Source of the DNA: Bacteroidaceae bacterium
Lineage (GTDB): Bacteria > Bacteroidota > Bacteroidia > Bacteroidales > Bacteroidaceae
NCBI GenBank assembly: GCA_017547165.1
Contig: JAFYQK010000013.1
Span: 99,642-163,641 of the forward strand
Direction: 5' to 3'
Length of the DNA stretch: 64,000 bases
Each line of letters opens with the position of its first letter. Position 1 is the first letter of the stretch. Position numbers and translations under genes: made by a program. Below, in pieces: positions 6,625 through 53,918 of the stretch. Under the pieces are notes generated by a model, which saw only the letters and a list, made by a program, of their open reading frames with translations, did no database searches and was not told the DNA's origin.

Positions 6625-6701
6625 TGAGTAATGTGTAATGAGTAATGAGTAGTGAGTAGTGAGTAGTGAGTAATGAGTAATGAGTAATGAGTAATGAGTA
6701 A
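6625..6701. repeat. Eleven 7-bp tandem repeats in the leader of the permease operon
   Basis: Heptamers TGAGTAA/TGAGTAG (one TGTGTAA) run eleven times in register and end 18 bp before the ferredoxin start codon. They lie between the second candidate operator and the start, so they are in the untranslated leader of the ferredoxin-thioredoxin-permease genes. Confidence 0.9.
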
Positions 6702-6813
6702 TTGGTTAGTAACGAGTCTTAACTATTCTACATTCGTATTTTTAGTTAATGGTTGATTATTTTATTCGCTTTGTAAGAGTAAAACCTTGGTGATTAACTG
6801 CTAACCTGTTCGT

Positions 6814-8746: not shown

Positions 8747-9457
8747 ATGAAGCACTATTATTGGGAAGCTGTGATTATAGCATTGGGAATTGTTGTATTT
8801 GGCTCGTTCATACAGAACTCTTTGGCGAGGTTTGTAAACAAGGAACGAGTGGTGACGGTGAAAGGCCTGTCGGAGCGCGAGATGCCTGCCGACAAGGTGA
8901 CATGGCCACTGGTGTTCAAAGAGTTGGGCAACGACCCTGCTGAGATATACCGTAGCATAGAGAGGAAGAACCAGGTGCTGGTATCGTTCCTTCAAGAGCA
9001 AGGTCTTGGCACCGACGAGGTGATGGTGAATGCTCCCGACATCAAGGACCGCTTTGCCGACTCGTGGTCGCAGGAACAGATAACAAACAGATATGTGGCC
9101 ACCAGCGTGATAATAGTGACCAGCAACAAGGTGGAACTGGTGCGCTCCATCATGCAGAAACAGGCACAACTAATGAAAATGGGCATAGCACTCATCACTG
9201 AGGACTATGGCAAGAACACTGTAAAGTATGAATTCACCCGACTGAACGACATCAAGCCCGAGATGGTGGAGGAGTCAACAAAGAACGCTCGCGCCACGGC
9301 AGAGAAGTTTGCCGAGGACTCGGATAGCGAGTTGGGCAAGATTCGTCGTGCCACACAGGGCCAGTTCAGCATCAGCGACCGCGACAACAACACACCACAC
9401 ATCAAAAACATCCGCGTAGTCTCCACCATCGAGTACTATATTAACGATGAGCGGTGA
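8747..9457 (+). CDS. SIMPL (DUF541) domain protein
   Basis: This 236-residue protein has one N-terminal membrane anchor or uncleaved signal (residues 6-25). The SIMPL/DUF541 fold follows: VVTVKGLSEREMPADKVTW at its start and a second lobe ending NIRVVSTIEYYIN. SIMPL proteins are periplasmic or outer-membrane associated; members have been linked to oxidative stress and outer-membrane function, but the biochemical role is not settled. It has its own promoter and terminator and is not in an operon. The stop codon lies inside a 7-bp tandem repeat, so repeat growth would lengthen the 3' untranslated region and not the protein. Confidence 0.85.
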   Translation: MKHYYWEAVIIALGIVVFGSFIQNSLARFVNKERVVTVKGLSEREMPADKVTWPLVFKELGNDPAEIYRSIERKNQVLVSFLQEQGLGTDEVMVNAPDIKDRFADSWSQEQITNRYVATSVIIVTSNKVELVRSIMQKQAQLMKMGIALITEDYGKNTVKYEFTRLNDIKPEMVEESTKNARATAEKFAEDSDSELGKIRRATQGQFSISDRDNNTPHIKNIRVVSTIEYYINDER

Positions 9458-9515
9458 GCGATGAGCGGTGAGCGATGAGCGGTGAGCGATGAGCGGTGAG
9501 CGATGAGCGATGAGC
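9446..9515. repeat. Ten 7-bp tandem repeats over a stop codon
   Basis: Ten heptamers alternate GATGAGC and GGTGAGC (a 14-bp higher-order unit, the last two both GATGAGC). The TGA at 9455-9457 in the second heptamer ends the SIMPL gene. Confidence 0.9.
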
Positions 9516-9551
9516 GAAACCAGCACACACAGGAATCCTAATACAACAACC

Positions 9552-19135: not shown

Positions 19136-19202
19136 GATGTTAGTTACGGTTACCCAAAGCATTAAGACCAGAAAATAAACAGCTGAAATATGCATTTATA
19201 AA

Positions 19203-19268
19203 ATTGTACTGAACATTGTGTACAATTGTACTAAATATTGTGTACATTAATACTAAACACTGAGTACA
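19203..19268. repeat. 22-bp-period array (three units plus a decayed fourth)
   Basis: Units start at 19203, 19225 and 19247. Units 1 and 2 share GTAC-n10-GTAC palindromes (GTACTGAACATTGTGTAC and GTACTAAATATTGTGTAC), and unit 3 is TACTAAACACTGAGTAC. A decayed unit begins at 19269. The first junction forms the palindrome GTACAATTGTAC. Confidence 0.85.
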
Positions 19269-19532
19269 ATTGTCCTCAATATAGGATTTATTTTATTGAA
19301 AGTGCTCTTCCTGCATATACTTAGCATTCTTATTACCTTTGTATAGTGTAGAGTGTAGTTTCGGCAAATCTTAACCGAGGACATTCTGTGGCAAGTTATA
19401 AAGCGGAATAAACAAAGCAGACAAAAGGTGAAGACAGAAAACGGGAAAGTGACTGGCAGAGGTTGATGAGCGACAGCATTAGGTTGATGAGTTCGGACTA
19501 ACAAGGCGAACTATAACCAATGGCAAAAACAC

Positions 19533-26721: not shown

Positions 26722-29700
26722 TTACTTAACCACAACCTTCTTGCCATCAACAATATAAACGCCGGCAGGCAAGCCTACTATAGTTTTTCCGACATACTGA
26801 CCTGAAACGGAATATACACCCTTAAGATGTGCTGTTTGTCCTCCGTCTTGCAGTGCCTCGTCTACAGAAGTGATGGTCTCATTCGCTACCTTAGCGTCCA
26901 AATACAACGAGAACACACCCTTTGACAAGCCCCATGCGTCACCATCAGGACCAAAGCCTGTGCGCACACCATGGTTGCCATTAACCGTGCGGTCATTAAC
27001 ATCACCTCCATTCTGGTTGAAGTCATAATAAACCACTAGTTTCTGATCACTTACCAAAGCCGCCACCTCTTCATCTGATGGATATACATTGCAAACGTTC
27101 TTCAAGTACAGATAATCCTTGGTCCAAATACGGAACTCATCAATGCTTGCTTTCATTGGAATGCCATCTACCCCCAACATAAACTTGGTCATACCCTTGA
27201 CAGAAGTTGTTGCTCCTTCACTTGCCTCTGAAATTTTTTCATTGTTACGATAGAATGTAATCTTACCTGAACTATTACGTCTGATCGCATAATGATTCCA
27301 TATGCCGGGCTGAACATATCCATTGGCAGATTGTACTGTAACGCCATTTATGGACACATACATCGCACCAACCTCGTTCACTTTGATAAGGAAGGTTTCC
27401 TCACTCTCGCCCATACCCATGCAGTAATTACTCAAGAACGTGGGATTAGCCCAGAAGTCAATAGTCATAGCTCTGGCAGAAAGAGCATAGGGTATTGTAA
27501 CCTTGGCACCATCCTGAGAAAAGTTCAAACCATTCTTAGAGTCGTCATTACAAACAATCAAGAAGTTCTGCTTGGTTGCAGAATGGCTGCCAACACTATT
27601 TGTGGCCTTCAGTGTGACATCATATCTGCCTGGATATTTGGGAGTCCACCATTGTTCCTTCTGTCCTTCTGTTATAGTAACCGTATTGGCATCGCCCTCC
27701 AATGTCCACTCATATTCTGTTGCGCCATAACGCGATGTGCTGGTAAACATGACAGGAGTCTCTTTAAGCACAGCCATCTCATTCACCATGAAATCTGCTA
27801 CGGGAGCAACACTTGTAGTCAAGACTACCTGTGAACTTTCGGCAACACGGCCATCAGAAGATGTCATCTTAAGTGTCATGGTATAGGTTCCGGCGGCATC
27901 ATATATTGCGCCTGCCTTGGGACCAAATACTTTTTCTACGTTAGCACCATGCATTGTCCACTCATAGCTACAGGCATCTACATAATTGTTTACATGCATG
28001 CTGAACTGTTCGCCACAAGGCATTGTAGTTGAATTGATTGTGAACGAAGCATCAAGAGCAGCAGCCTCCTTTACTTCGATTTCCATAGTATCAGAAACAA
28101 TGGCATCGGCATAACTTGAACCAAACACAACCACCTCATGCTTGCCTGGTGTATTAAATACTACCGTTGGCGCAAGTATATGTTTCTCTGTCACACCACA
28201 TGATGATATTGTCCACCAAACTTTGTTTACGGCATCGCTTCTTTCAGCGCTAAATGTCACAGGAACACCAACAAAAATATCATCTTTTTGCTCTCTGATA
28301 GCAACAGTTGCCGCACGCTTTGTCACCTTTATCTTACTTGCGTTACCAGCATCGACCACAGGATTGGAAGTCACTGTCATACGGGCGTGGTTGCCACCAA
28401 CACAATCACGCATATAGTATGCTCCATCCTCACCAAGGAAGGCATCACCCTTATAGTATGCCAACAGACCTTCGGGCAAGACCTCACCATAATACTCAGG
28501 ATACTGCATTGATGTAGTTGAAAGTTTTTGTCCTCTAATCTCCGCCTGAGTACGCGCATAGTTCCATACACGGATTTCATCATACTGAGCATTCTGGGCA
28601 CCACTATTATGACTTGATGAACTGAAAACGTAGTCTCCAAATCCACCCAATCCACTATATGTATTACTTGTTACGGTTCCAACCGAAGTTCCATTCTTAT
28701 ACAATGTCATCTTATTGCCTTTTACAACAATGGCAATGTGATGCCATGTATTAACCCCAAATGTCTGAGAACTATTGATACGATTTGAGGTATCCCAACC
28801 ACAGGTGAATTGACCATTAGCGTTGAAATGTTGCATATATGTTCCCCAACCGGGACCTGCCTCACAATTCCAATTCTTCACAGCTGTGGGCTTTATCAAG
28901 AACTCTATGGTACATTCGTTGTATTTGTTTACAAAGATATTTGGGATTGTAAAACCTGCACCATCCAATAATATAGCATCATTATCATCTCCCTTTACCT
29001 CAGACTTAACTGACACCTTAGCACTCTCTGTGCCATCACTATAAACTGCAGAAACAGAATACTCGTTAGCCTCTCCTACGGCATATGTTCTCTCTGTTGT
29101 TTCACCAACAAGAACACCGTCGGCATAAACCTTGTACGACTTCACATCATAACTGCTCTTCTTGGGAGCATCCCACAACAGGGTTGAACCGTCAAGCATA
29201 AGGTTCATAACAGACTCATATCCCTTGCCATATACAACGGCACTAATCATCAAACACTTGCCATCTTGAGTTATTTCATAAAAGGACCCGCCCAAGTCAA
29301 ACATTGATTCTATACCATTCAGGTCCTTTTCAAGGTCAACTATACTTGCTTCGTATATATTGCCTGTACCGTTGCTTGTCGCATTCTTTCTGTTGACAAT
29401 AAAGAAATACTTCAAGGGTTTGTTGGTATCAAAGTTTGCGCTTAGGTCTGTAAGGTCGTAGCAGAACTCCATGGGGTCATAGTTAAGTGCATTCTTCCAT
29501 CTGCCCAGCATTGGAATGGCAGGAACAGGATCCGCATTACCATTTGCGCCATCACCGGCGTAGCGGAAGTGATGCATGTCCATCACTGCCTCTGGCTCTG
29601 TAGCATTCAAGTCAGAGCTGATGCCCACCTGAAGCAGCAACTCGCTTCGATGGCTGTAATCCATCTTCAGCTTTATCACGCGCAAGGGACGGAAGTTCTT

Positions 29701-30735
29701 GCGGGCATGATAGAGCTCGCCGCTCCAGTAGCCACTGGTCATCTCACCTGTAGCCTGGTCGCTCACAGGACCAGCATACTTATAAGGACAGTAGATGAAG
29801 CCCTTGTTCTCCCAGTTGCCCCAGCTATTAACGATAATCCAGGCGCCTTTTTCGTCCTTGCTAACCTCACCGGCAACACCATTGCCGTCTAAGTCGAACT
29901 CGATGCGGTCGTCCCAACCTACCATGGTTACAGCATGGTCTACCTGAGTACCCCAACGGTGAACATAGCCCATGCCTGTCACACCAGCGGCATCATTGGC
30001 TGCGGTCTGGGGGATATTCCTACATATACAAGCAGAAGCCACACCAAGACCGATAAGACCACCCGCCTTGAAGTCCAAGTCTCCGGCATGATTATATAGC
30101 CATGCCTTGGCAGCCAGGCGGCCTTCCTCTGTGTCTACCGTCAAAGGATTGGATGTTGGACGAAGCATACGATTGCCTATAGCATTCATCCACTTGTCAT
30201 AACCAGTCATCCAACCGAAGTCGTTATTCGTCTCTTCCTGATAGCCAAACAGAGAACTATAAGTGCGGCCTCCGTAAACAGCCGCATTGGGCACACCTAC
30301 GTATTCTACAAAGGCATCCTTGCCCGAATTACCGTTTGTCAGCAGCCATACGAAATGTGAAGGATACTGATTCTCGGGCAAACTGGCGTCAAGGTCACGC
30401 AAAGCATTTATCTCATGGGTAAACATGTAACAGATACGACTTGCACTACCGCACGAACCACCATCCTGATTGAACACCGGTGGGAAGTACTTGGTATCGG
30501 CATTGTTCCAATACTCTGGCAGTTCATCTGCAGCCACCCTACGCATTGCCGAACGGCTTGCAGCCTCACCTTCAACTGGAACAAATTTCAACAGTCGTGG
30601 CTCAGCTGGATACGCCTTCTGGGGATCAACATAATCGGGATACTTCTCTCTGTTTACAGGAACATCCTGTGCATACGACAATGTTGCCAAAGCGCAACAT
30701 GCCATTAAACTAAGAGTAAATCTTCTCATAAGCAT
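26722..30735 (-). CDS. Secreted papain-like protease with LamG and PKD modules
   Basis: The 1337-residue protein has a signal peptide (cleavage after LSYAQ) and a C1-like peptidase domain at about 75-340. FNQDGGSCGSAS supplies C95, VDHAVTMVGW H267 and IIVNSWG N303, the Cys-His-Asn triad. In papain the Cys lies six residues after the oxyanion Gln, but here it lies five after, a variant seen in Bacteroidetes relatives. A Ca-binding-like DLDGNG lies at 281. Two LamG-type lectin-like domains (about 590-740 and 1100-1240) flank PKD-like repeats (about 830-1080). The tail GVYSVSGQYVG...GVYIVDGKKVVVK resembles secretion or surface-sorting tails. The second ATG (30729) is an equally likely start. It is monocistronic. 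Confidence 0.8.
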   Translation of the reverse strand: MLMRRFTLSLMACCALATLSYAQDVPVNREKYPDYVDPQKAYPAEPRLLKFVPVEGEAASRSAMRRVAADELPEYWNNADTKYFPPVFNQDGGSCGSASRICYMFTHEINALRDLDASLPENQYPSHFVWLLTNGNSGKDAFVEYVGVPNAAVYGGRTYSSLFGYQEETNNDFGWMTGYDKWMNAIGNRMLRPTSNPLTVDTEEGRLAAKAWLYNHAGDLDFKAGGLIGLGVASACICRNIPQTAANDAAGVTGMGYVHRWGTQVDHAVTMVGWDDRIEFDLDGNGVAGEVSKDEKGAWIIVNSWGNWENKGFIYCPYKYAGPVSDQATGEMTSGYWSGELYHARKNFRPLRVIKLKMDYSHRSELLLQVGISSDLNATEPEAVMDMHHFRYAGDGANGNADPVPAIPMLGRWKNALNYDPMEFCYDLTDLSANFDTNKPLKYFFIVNRKNATSNGTGNIYEASIVDLEKDLNGIESMFDLGGSFYEITQDGKCLMISAVVYGKGYESVMNLMLDGSTLLWDAPKKSSYDVKSYKVYADGVLVGETTERTYAVGEANEYSVSAVYSDGTESAKVSVKSEVKGDDNDAILLDGAGFTIPNIFVNKYNECTIEFLIKPTAVKNWNCEAGPGWGTYMQHFNANGQFTCGWDTSNRINSSQTFGVNTWHHIAIVVKGNKMTLYKNGTSVGTVTSNTYSGLGGFGDYVFSSSSHNSGAQNAQYDEIRVWNYARTQAEIRGQKLSTTSMQYPEYYGEVLPEGLLAYYKGDAFLGEDGAYYMRDCVGGNHARMTVTSNPVVDAGNASKIKVTKRAATVAIREQKDDIFVGVPVTFSAERSDAVNKVWWTISSCGVTEKHILAPTVVFNTPGKHEVVVFGSSYADAIVSDTMEIEVKEAAALDASFTINSTTMPCGEQFSMHVNNYVDACSYEWTMHGANVEKVFGPKAGAIYDAAGTYTMTLKMTSSDGRVAESSQVVLTTSVAPVADFMVNEMAVLKETPVMFTSTSRYGATEYEWTLEGDANTVTITEGQKEQWWTPKYPGRYDVTLKATNSVGSHSATKQNFLIVCNDDSKNGLNFSQDGAKVTIPYALSARAMTIDFWANPTFLSNYCMGMGESEETFLIKVNEVGAMYVSINGVTVQSANGYVQPGIWNHYAIRRNSSGKITFYRNNEKISEASEGATTSVKGMTKFMLGVDGIPMKASIDEFRIWTKDYLYLKNVCNVYPSDEEVAALVSDQKLVVYYDFNQNGGDVNDRTVNGNHGVRTGFGPDGDAWGLSKGVFSLYLDAKVANETITSVDEALQDGGQTAHLKGVYSVSGQYVGKTIVGLPAGVYIVDGKKVVVK

Positions 30736-30938: not shown

Positions 30939-32210
30939 ATGGAGCCCAAGCATATTCAAATAAAGGACTACAACTACCATTTGACTGACGAAAGGATTGC
31001 AAAATTTCCTCTTTCCCAGCGCGACATGAGCAAACTCTTAGTGTATCGCCAGGGAGATATCAGCAAGGACATTTTCTGCAACCTTCCGGAATATCTTCCC
31101 AAAGGAGCCTTGATGGTTTTCAACAACACCAGAGTGGTGAGGGCAAGACTTCACTTTCGCAAAGGTCAGACATTACTTTGTCCGAGTTCAAACATTACTT
31201 TGTCTGAGGCAAAAGACAGTAATGTCCAAACACCCCTTGGAGCGCTCATCGAAATTTTCATCCTGGAACCTGCACTCCCCATTGAGTATCAAGAGAATTT
31301 TCTAAGTCGAGGCAAATGCTCATGGTACTGCCTTATAGGCAACTTAAAGAAATGGAAGGCTGGTGCTCTGCATCAACAAATTTCAATAGATGACACCACC
31401 ATCACGCTCTCTGCCAATCGTTTAGGCACTCATGGGACCAGTCATCAAATAGAATTCACATGGGACAGCGATCACACTTGGGCTGAGATTCTCGAAGCCT
31501 CTGGCGAACTTCCCATTCCACCATATCTTAACAGAAACACCGAGCAAAGCGACCTCACCACCTATCAAACCGTATATTCCAAGATTAAAGGCAGTGTGGC
31601 AGCCCCCACGGCAGGTCTGCATTTCACATCCGAGGTTCTAACATCACTTGACTCACATGACATTGACCGCGAAGAGGTTACACTGCATGTTGGTGCCGGC
31701 ACCTTCAAACCCGTTAAGAGCGAGGAGATTGGCGACCATGACATGCACACCGAACACATAGCCGTACGCCGAGAGACTATAGAGAAACTTATCTCCCATA
31801 ATGGACATGCTATAGCAGTTGGCACAACCAGTGTACGCACCTTGGAGAGTCTGTATTATATGGGCATATTGGCCATGAAGGGCGAGGAAGATTTGCACGT
31901 TAAACAATGGATGCCATACGAGGAGAATACCTCGCACATCAGCACATGCAAAGCTCTTAAAGCACTCCTCAAGTATATGGACAAGCGAGGCATGGACATA
32001 CTCCATTCTTCTACACAGATTATCATTGCACCTGGATATGATTTCCACATTGTAAGGATGATGATAACCAACTTCCACCAACCCCAAAGCACGCTCCTGC
32101 TTCTGGTTAGCGCCTTTGTAAAGGGCAATTGGAAGAGCATATACGATTATGCGTTGGAAAATGATTTCCGATTCCTATCCTATGGTGATAGCAGTATATT
32201 GATTCCATAA
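30939..32210 (+). CDS. queA: S-adenosylmethionine:tRNA ribosyltransferase-isomerase
   Basis: This 423-residue QueA builds epoxyqueuosine in tRNA by moving the ribosyl group of SAM to 7-aminomethyl-7-deazaguanine. Signatures are MVFNNTRVVRARL, SVAAPTAGLHF, VTLHVGAGTFKPV, AVGTTSVRTLES and MITNFHQPQSTLLLLVSAF. After ARLHFRK (residue 75) the usual two or three residues before GALIEIFILEP are replaced by about 24 residues (76-99) encoded by a 22-bp-period repeat array. The frame is kept because three units are 66 bp. The insertion lies in a surface loop of the N-terminal half, so activity is plausible but untested. A Nudix gene follows after 12 bp. Confidence 0.93.
   Translation: MEPKHIQIKDYNYHLTDERIAKFPLSQRDMSKLLVYRQGDISKDIFCNLPEYLPKGALMVFNNTRVVRARLHFRKGQTLLCPSSNITLSEAKDSNVQTPLGALIEIFILEPALPIEYQENFLSRGKCSWYCLIGNLKKWKAGALHQQISIDDTTITLSANRLGTHGTSHQIEFTWDSDHTWAEILEASGELPIPPYLNRNTEQSDLTTYQTVYSKIKGSVAAPTAGLHFTSEVLTSLDSHDIDREEVTLHVGAGTFKPVKSEEIGDHDMHTEHIAVRRETIEKLISHNGHAIAVGTTSVRTLESLYYMGILAMKGEEDLHVKQWMPYEENTSHISTCKALKALLKYMDKRGMDILHSSTQIIIAPGYDFHIVRMMITNFHQPQSTLLLLVSAFVKGNWKSIYDYALENDFRFLSYGDSSILIP
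31168..31233. repeat. 22-bp-period array inserted in queA
   Basis: Units start at 31168, 31190 and 31212. Cores are AGACATTACTTTGTCC, AAACATTACTTTGTCT and, in inverse sense, AAAGACAGTAATGTCC, each followed by six variable bases. GACA/TGTC arms make each core a short palindrome. The array is exactly 66 bp, so it inserts 22 codons in frame. Confidence 0.85.
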
Positions 32211-52924: not shown

Positions 52925-53598
52925 CAAATGTTTAAAAAATGTTATTACAAAGACACCAAAATAGCATTTTGTTACAAATAACCACCAAAATCACTGATTT
53001 AAGAGCATTTTGCTATCATTTTGACAACATTTTATTAAGTGTAAATATTACGATAAAAATTTCCATATTCCTCTTCTTTCAATCTCATTGACTCGCTTTT
53101 AACAACAATTTAAACGCTTTTGTTTGAACTTACACCTATTTGCTATCATTTTGTTAGTTAAAAGACACATACTAAGAATTCTGGATGGATATTAGTTTTT
53201 TATAATGGATTTCCAACTGAAAGACATCTATTCATGCCTAAAAGACTTATTCGTATTTCAGCATCCAACTAAAGCATCTGCTCAAACCGTAGATAATAGA
53301 AGAAAGCAGAAACCTTTGCAACATGATAATAGAGAAAGGCATTAGCCTATTCCGCGAATAAAAACAAACACATCTGCTAACCAGAAAAAAAACATCTCAT
53401 TCTTGCCGAACAAGAAGGATGGTCTCCTGCTGTATTCATCAGAGAAAAGTATTAAGCAAAACAGTTGGGGATTAAAGAATCGTAAACTGTTCCAGTATGT
53501 CCAGAAGAAAGGTGTAAACCTATTCTGCCAATGAAATCAAAACGTCTACATAAATCCAGAAAAGACTGTAAAAATATTGACATCATCAACCTTCGCAC

Positions 53599-53708
53599 AA
53601 GACATTACTTTCTTAGAAGCAAGACAAAGCATTCTTCGGACCATAAGATTGTAATCTTTGGCTCATAAGATTATAATCTTCGTGCCGTAAGATTAGGGAG
53701 TGTTTTCA
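53599..53708. repeat. 22-bp-period array upstream of susC
   Basis: Units start at 53599, 53621, 53643 and 53665, with a decayed fifth at 53687. Sixteen-base cores are AAGACATTACTTTCTT, AAGACAAAGCATTCTT, ATAAGATTGTAATCTT and ATAAGATTATAATCTT. All end TCTT, and each is followed by six variable bases ending in C. The first unit shares the 12-mer AGACATTACTTT with the array inside queA. Confidence 0.85.
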
Positions 53709-53918
53709 CAAAGATAAGATGGAGACAATCCGAGGAGTAGCAAAAGAATACTCAAAAACGAATATCCATCTTATAATCAACCACTTGAACAACACAAAAC
53801 CTCACCCAAACAACTATAGAATAAACTCCAAAAACCTTTCTATATACGACATTAGACAGAGAGGCAGCTACCTTTCACCATAGAGACCCCAATAGAAATA
53901 TCTTTACACCAAACAATT

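Follow-up and report, generated by a model that had tools for sequence, protein, structure and literature searches.

How did a tandem array with a 22-bp period come to lie in frame inside queA, and is it native to the gene or derived from elsewhere in the genome? The question is raised by a 64,000-nucleotide stretch of a Bacteroidaceae genome, here called the window; the genome itself is referred to as G000. A first-pass annotation of the window had proposed that three such units entered queA, that the residues they encode are foreign to the QueA family, and that they point to a mobile or templated repeat family able to enter coding DNA, with another array at 53599. The features discussed below are collected in Table 1.

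Table 1. Coordinates of queA, of the repeat arrays of the window and of a second gene with an in-frame array. Positions refer to the window unless a locus is named.
Feature	Location	Strand	Details
queA, tRNA preQ1(34) S-adenosylmethionine ribosyltransferase-isomerase	30939..32210	+	423 aa, open throughout; aligned with 40 relatives
22-bp unit 1, core AGACATTACTTTGTCC	31168..31183	+	in queA
22-bp unit 2, core AAACATTACTTTGTCT	31190..31205	+	in queA
22-bp unit 3, core AAAGACAGTAATGTCC	31212..31227	-	in queA; inverted, core 2 bp short
Insert-derived residues 76-100 (GQTLLCPSSNITLSEAKDSNVQTPL), predicted loop	31164..31238	+	QueA alignment, AlphaFold
Intergenic mosaic 22-bp array, ending AAGATTAGGG	53596..53709	.	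two queA-type units, then two units of the AAGATTRTAATCTT family
Intergenic 22-bp array, third family (GTACTAAACATTGTGTAC)	19178..19294	.	repeat search of the window
U32-peptidase-family gene related to TrhP, in-frame 22-bp array	L098:2603-4360 (G000)		array in linker, about residues 494-522

The product of queA matches the family model TIGR00113 with 289 bits (cut-off 267), and it scores 323.6 against NF001140, just below the cut-off of 324. An open frame of 1337 aa adjoins the gene (26722-30735, reverse strand) and has no NCBIfam match. Within queA the three cores are spaced 22 bp apart, two of them direct and the third reversed, and over a stretch of 44 bases period 22 matches at best at 33. 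When the window was shuffled 100 times with its dinucleotides preserved, the period-22 maximum was between 22 and 27 and never reached 28. The array inside the gene is thus confirmed and well beyond chance. An AlphaFold model built from 41 sequences has a mean pLDDT of 85.3. Residues 80-97 have a pLDDT below 50 and lie between the strands 70-74 and 103-113, while the remainder is confidently folded except for residues 211-214 and 217-220, also below 50. According to this model, the insert-derived residues form a disordered loop in the turn of a beta-hairpin. Relatives with an experimental structure are 1yy3, 1vky and 1wdi.

To place the turn in its family, we compared 66 QueA sequences including our own (rows L013 and L051 are identical), using a tree built without the loop. 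The turn has two residues in 30 of the 66 sequences, 5-12 in 26 and 18-34 in only 10, and with 25 residues in G000 the inserted residues are indeed foreign to the family. The nearest relatives of G000 QueA are L031, which has 25 residues with diverged 22-bp units, and L032, which has five. As the short-turn L032 is the sister of the carrier L031 on the QueA tree, the history requires either a single gain followed by a loss or two separate gains. The set contains no filled and empty pair with identical flanks, the nearest short form, L032, differing in the turn itself. The first-pass annotation had expected a clean 22-residue gap, but the alignment gives 25 residues against two (30 of 66) or five (L032). 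Its statement that three units make 66 bp and leave the frame intact is right about the open frame but not about the exact history, as the net excess is 69 bp relative to the two-residue form and 60 bp relative to L032.

The inserted residues are not carried by all close relatives, and in the nearest carrier they have diverged. Between G000 and L031, 10 of 24 residues are identical in the insert and 338 of 397 elsewhere, and the ratio of synonymous to nonsynonymous codon changes is 5:14 in the insert and 147:59 in the rest of the gene. Judged from these residue and codon changes, the insert does not look constrained by selection on the protein, unlike the rest of QueA, which apparently is.

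The same turn is also occupied by other repeats. The turn inserts of L034-L036 are at most candidates for such repeats, being only weakly period-22 (27-29 of 44), and their family counts are modest, 25-29 against 8-10 for the control. In three further genomes (G005, locus L020; G020, L023; G036, L019) a G+C-rich palindromic sequence is found at the turn used in G000. Genome-wide, its pattern occurs 26 times against 0 for the control in G005, 43 against 1 in G020 and 42 against 1 in G036, compared with 1 against 1 in G000 and 4 against 3 in G067. Exact matches fall within queA in the sister species G005 and G020; the queA of G036 is absent from the pattern matches, its insert being more diverged, though G+C-rich. 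Because the three form one clade, their turn inserts may go back to a single event. A G+C-rich turn of 11 aa in L048 was also considered as a repeat and was not upheld (4 against 3). That a single QueA turn holds one repeat family in some species and another family elsewhere is an aspect that the first-pass annotation did not include.

The units in queA have counterparts throughout G000. With at most one mismatch, the core ACATTACTNTGTC is found at 27 places, compared with 14 for the reversed control, and 14 of these places have a neighbour at a distance of 22 or 44 bp. Aligned with other loci in the 832 kb of the genome searched, the queA insert scores 54 (L099), 51 (L091) and 50 (L105), compared with 27-33 for eight shuffles of the insert, so the proposed membership in a repeat family holds, and this family is scattered through the genome. 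The intergenic array at L105:9881-10100 contains the last two units of queA in matching order and orientation, the inverted one included, and is bounded by A-rich and T-rich ends. With matching units inside such ends at L105, the queA array resembles the inner part of a dispersed element; the queA insert has none of the A/T-rich ends present on intact copies. The array that had been reported at 53599 is real, but only two of its units are queA-like, the others belonging to a second family. This mosaic has the appearance of recombination between two families.

Period 22 was then counted in two samples of G000. The first, 451 kb, consisted of 20 stretches, 17 of them around core-pattern hits, and the window; it contains 20 arrays of period 22, the next periods having nine. 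The second, 380 kb mostly from contigs without core-pattern hits, contains eight, equal to period 14 and followed by period 21 with seven. In both samples together (832 kb) period 22, with 28 arrays, is the commonest of the periods tested, so the genome holds many 22-bp arrays besides that in queA. By eye, the families are AAACATTACTTTGTTT, AAGATTRTAATCTT, GTACTAAACATTGTGTAC, GACAACAAT...TTGTTG and GGACTGCAGTCC; arrays of AAACATTACTTTGTTT and AAGATTRTAATCTT can have the common end GACGCCCTAAT. Under a simple gene model, 14 of the 28 arrays lie in gaps between tandem genes, eight in convergent and two in divergent gaps, two at stretch edges and two in genes. A third in-gene candidate (L097:9828-10367, period-22 score 27) was rejected, the relatives aligning at the same length with no gap. 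The window and six further stretches gave no Rfam match.

Whole elements can be followed in G025, a genome of the same genus, whose own queA (L014) has the two-residue turn. The core of a G+C-rich 22-bp array has 1085 matches in its 2.5 Mb, against 51 for the control, and the stretches examined (L155-L174) contain roughly one array every 6.5 kb. In 398 kb, period 22 accounts for 61 arrays and period 44 for 27, with at most five for every other period. We found 371 units, 109 of them solitary; 175 of the 183 neighbouring pairs within 70 bp are spaced 22 bp apart, and 63 of the 64 elements with at least three units have three or four. Copies begin approximately with AAACGCAC and finish approximately with GTGCGTTT. 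Spacers in corresponding positions of the element have 4.74 of 8 bases in common for the last spacer, 4.00 for the second last and 3.76 for the third last, compared with 3.84, 3.86 and 3.13 across positions, so a spacer order is clear at the last position and weak elsewhere.

Best matches among the G025 copies have a median identity of 0.82 over 80 bp, and five of the six closest pairs were aligned. Three of these are 89-91% identical over 80 bp with unrelated flanks (24-34% identical), showing that the elements disperse as units. The other two have one or both flanks in common, so that some copies also spread when a whole segment is duplicated. Inspection of the pairs by eye revealed no target-site duplication. 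Selection for an RNA hairpin or a cruciform was considered and is unsupported, complementary change being marginal, at one of 25 dyad pairs. At first 24 of the 61 arrays overlapped open reading frames, in part spurious ones; with frames of at least 180 aa the number is 10 of 64. Nine of these ten frames were scanned, four had no Pfam match, and we claim no coding insertion from them.

More widely, a sample of 352 kb was drawn from G061 and 19 genomes of the genus. Among periods 10 to 59, period 22 is the commonest in it, with 16 arrays, followed by period 21 with 11 and period 44 with 10. The arrays occur in 10 of the 20 genomes, and by eye their unit sequences mostly differ. It is also the commonest period across the QueA loci, with 26 arrays against 14 for period 21; the 26 include the three of the window and a few low-complexity stretches. 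Records of Parabacteroides among these loci also hold 22-bp arrays. A sample of 268 kb, taken from 20 genomes that belong to other families of the order, shows no enrichment; four arrays were counted, two being runs of N.

Repeats are found at two further protein sites. A second QueA loop, after residue 309, could be read in 56 of 67 loci and has 11-20 residues in 51 and more in five. As read from the loop sequence, L019 and L020 carry 7-bp repeats there (40 and 33 residues) and L023 carries G+C-rich repeats (42 residues); the remaining longer loops are those of L066 (35) and L026 (26). In G036, queA contains two matches of the 7-bp pattern (C17:43856 and 43922). The window itself contains 7-bp tandem arrays at 6625-6702 (TGAGTAA) and 9445-9517 (CGATGAG/CGGTGAG), and the same period, in other sequences, also appears in the second QueA loop or the U32 linker of G008, G005 and G036.

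The other site is the linker of the U32/TrhP-like gene. The alignment of this gene has 25 rows, comprising our own and those from 23 other genomes, with one entry appearing twice. G061 and G062, which are close relatives, yielded no orthologue and only a paralogue at 31%. The G000 gene is open and the array makes up much of its linker of 40 residues, which is three residues longer than in G063 (37, counted by eye) and seven longer than in G004 (33); in neither of these are repeats visible. With an excess of only 3-7 residues, a net gain in G000 is unsupported. The linkers of G066 (53 residues) and G065 (59 residues) contain a G+C-rich inverted repeat, with some copies within the gene; its core is found 55, 39 and 22 times in G066, G065 and G064, against 0 for the control in each. 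Elsewhere the counts are 2 against 1 (G000), 1 against 0 (G019), 0 against 1 (G063) and 0 in G004 and G025. The linker of G008 has a 7-bp repeat with 85 places genome-wide against 0, some within the gene; this pattern is also found in G036 (64 against 11), G005 (23 against 0) and G025 (2 against 0), and has no place in G000, G004 or G066. The 35-residue linker of G036 consists mostly of another 7-bp repeat (53 against 0, with gene copies at C6:65503-65598), which is frequent in G005 (158 against 0), G020 (213 against 0) and G008 (51 against 0) and has none in G000 and G004. Pattern searches gave no repeat-family match inside the linker of G005, G019 or G064. Several further relatives have a linker of 68-91 residues with a common motif, and since they retain this longer version, the linker must also have been lost or replaced repeatedly.

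We considered whether the queA array could have arisen in place, by slippage in a fast-evolving loop whose native codons AGACTTCACTTTCGCAAAGGTC resembled a unit and were duplicated. Tandem Repeats Finder extends the array to the left over these native codons (31146-31201, 76% matches), and the length of the turn varies through the lineage. However, slippage can neither invert a unit nor supply dispersed copies, while the units of queA match other arrays of the genome far above shuffles, with the inverted unit in the same order, and other species have other repeat families at this turn. An origin in place is therefore unlikely. A spread of the copies mainly by segmental duplication or by gene conversion between arrays, without transposition, would account for the G025 pair whose right flanks are alike (0.84; left 0.32) and for the pair alike on both sides (0.66 and 0.63), but the other three stop sharply at the element ends, and we regard this as quite improbable for the main route.

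The arrays might alternatively serve the cell, as rows of sites, spaced by two turns of the helix, to which a chromosomal protein binds, or as bidirectional terminators, with the queA copy placed or kept by selection. Such a role would fit the 22-bp spacing, which by eye is constant while the unit sequences differ between species. It would also fit the G025 units, in which AC or GT is the central dinucleotide of 282 out of 371 and pairing is not conserved: one of the 25 dyad pairs is above shuffles at 0.02 (197 against 195.1 cells) and several are below expectation. Convergent gaps hold 18 of the 48 intergenic elements of G025 and make up 29 of the 113 gaps of at least 100 bp; yet nine of the 48 lie in divergent gaps. 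Termination finds weak and mixed support from gap orientation and end runs, and we did not retain it. T-runs follow on the sense 3' side in 14 of 21 tandem cases in G025, mildly above the 5' side (8 of 21), and in G000 the ends are asymmetric, with TTTT near the right end in 21 of 28 arrays and AAAA near the left in seven (random expectation 0.25 and 0.21). As RNA, the queA array folds no better than unremarkably (z -1.13). As a functional role also leaves the copies inside genes unexplained, it seems to us a poor candidate overall, with little probability.

The best-known case of palindromic insertions in frame is that of Rickettsia. There, palindromic non-coding repeats (RPEs) lie in frame in unrelated protein genes and are tolerated (PMC10969869, PMC3733652). 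The queA case is alike in the in-frame entry with the gene left open. RPEs are about 150 bp long and rickettsial, whereas the repeats described here are arrays of 22-bp units from Bacteroidales, most of which (24 of 28) are intergenic. On our comparison by description, RPEs are the closest system in behaviour and the queA case would be a variant new to Bacteroidales. REPs are short clustered palindromes, mostly extragenic and sometimes in genes, and two Xanthomonas species are reported to have different REPs at about one site of recB (PMC3733652), which sets a precedent for recurrent insertion sites. Like REP/BIME sequences, which are dispersed, mostly extragenic palindromic units of 20-40 bp, the arrays here have these properties, but they have a 22-bp period and several units per element. 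Neither GTAG nor CGTC, the REP/BIME tag, is present on either strand of the queA array or of the two other window arrays; spacers in G025 often form CGTC.

The first-pass annotation had suggested kinship with BrickBuilt of Porphyromonas gingivalis. BrickBuilt has a 23-nt unit, a leader and a tail, IS5-type ends and an always intergenic location (PMC4596501). It is likewise a dispersed, non-autonomous element of short tandem units in Bacteroidales, but the kinship fails on period, ends and location. Period 23 accounts for two arrays and one array in the G000 samples and for none in G025. The terminal repeat GAGACCTTTGCA, with one mismatch, has three places in 832 kb and none at an array: window position 53309, about 290 bp from one, and one place each in L120 and L125, two loci without a called period-22 array. 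Unlike BrickBuilt, the arrays here have copies in queA and in the U32/TrhP-like gene. In G025, no shared sequence was seen beyond the ends of the elements.

Candidate mobilising enzymes were searched for by domain. The Y1 transposase (PF01797) that would correspond to the RAYT of REP/BIME was not found in G000 or G025, whose assemblies are only 85-87% complete, and was present in two of 12 genomes, G063 and weakly G064. DDE_Tnp_1 (PF01609) has three matches in G000 and two in G061, and none in G025 or G012. Both RAYT and DDE_Tnp_1 were set aside as mobiliser in G025, neither being found in its incomplete assembly.

Taken together, we consider the insert in queA to be, with good probability, the in-frame inner part of a dispersed, non-autonomous palindromic element, kept at a tolerant turn. 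The source would be a non-coding element of roughly 90-100 bp, built of 22-bp imperfect palindromes and mobilised by an enzyme acting in trans, and the 66 bp in queA would be the inner part of one copy. This copy may have entered the gene in frame in the common ancestor of G000 and L031, and would have been retained because in the beta-hairpin turn it merely lengthens a disordered loop. The short turn of L032 would then reflect a later loss of the copy; alternatively, G000 and L031 gained theirs separately. Copies in genes would survive only where they keep the reading frame and fall in a turn or linker that tolerates them, so that the recurrence of one turn would be a matter of survival, by frame and fold, and not of target choice.

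A wider reading, which we find possible though doubtful, is that the genus has a class of mobile repeats set by geometry rather than by sequence: a few imperfect palindromes 22 bp apart, the palindrome being species-specific (for instance GACATTACTTTGTC, CGCACCACGGTGCG, GGTTAACC, AAGACGCGCGTCTT). They would be bound by a rapidly evolving protein whose sites have to lie two turns of the helix apart. The soft spots of proteins would then be an accidental archive, refilled when the repeat changes. In the literature searched, we found no description of unlike repeat architectures at common sites, nor of a fixed 22-bp geometry with changing palindromes. Should a single recognition system lie behind the constant spacing and the changing palindromes, the arrays would form a bacterial repeat class not found described in that literature.

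In this uncultured gut lineage, common protein sites are occupied by repeats of three dissimilar kinds, namely 22-bp arrays, inverted repeats rich in G+C, and 7-bp repeats. Across species, the QueA turn holds two of these kinds, the second QueA loop two and the U32/TrhP-like linker all three. This hints that shared sites recur through the tolerance of the protein rather than as a chosen target. Such sites may serve as a natural insertion screen for the soft spots of proteins and as a record of the repeat that was active in each ancestor. They also indicate, with queA as an example, that repetitive DNA can make a protein longer and still leave it intact.
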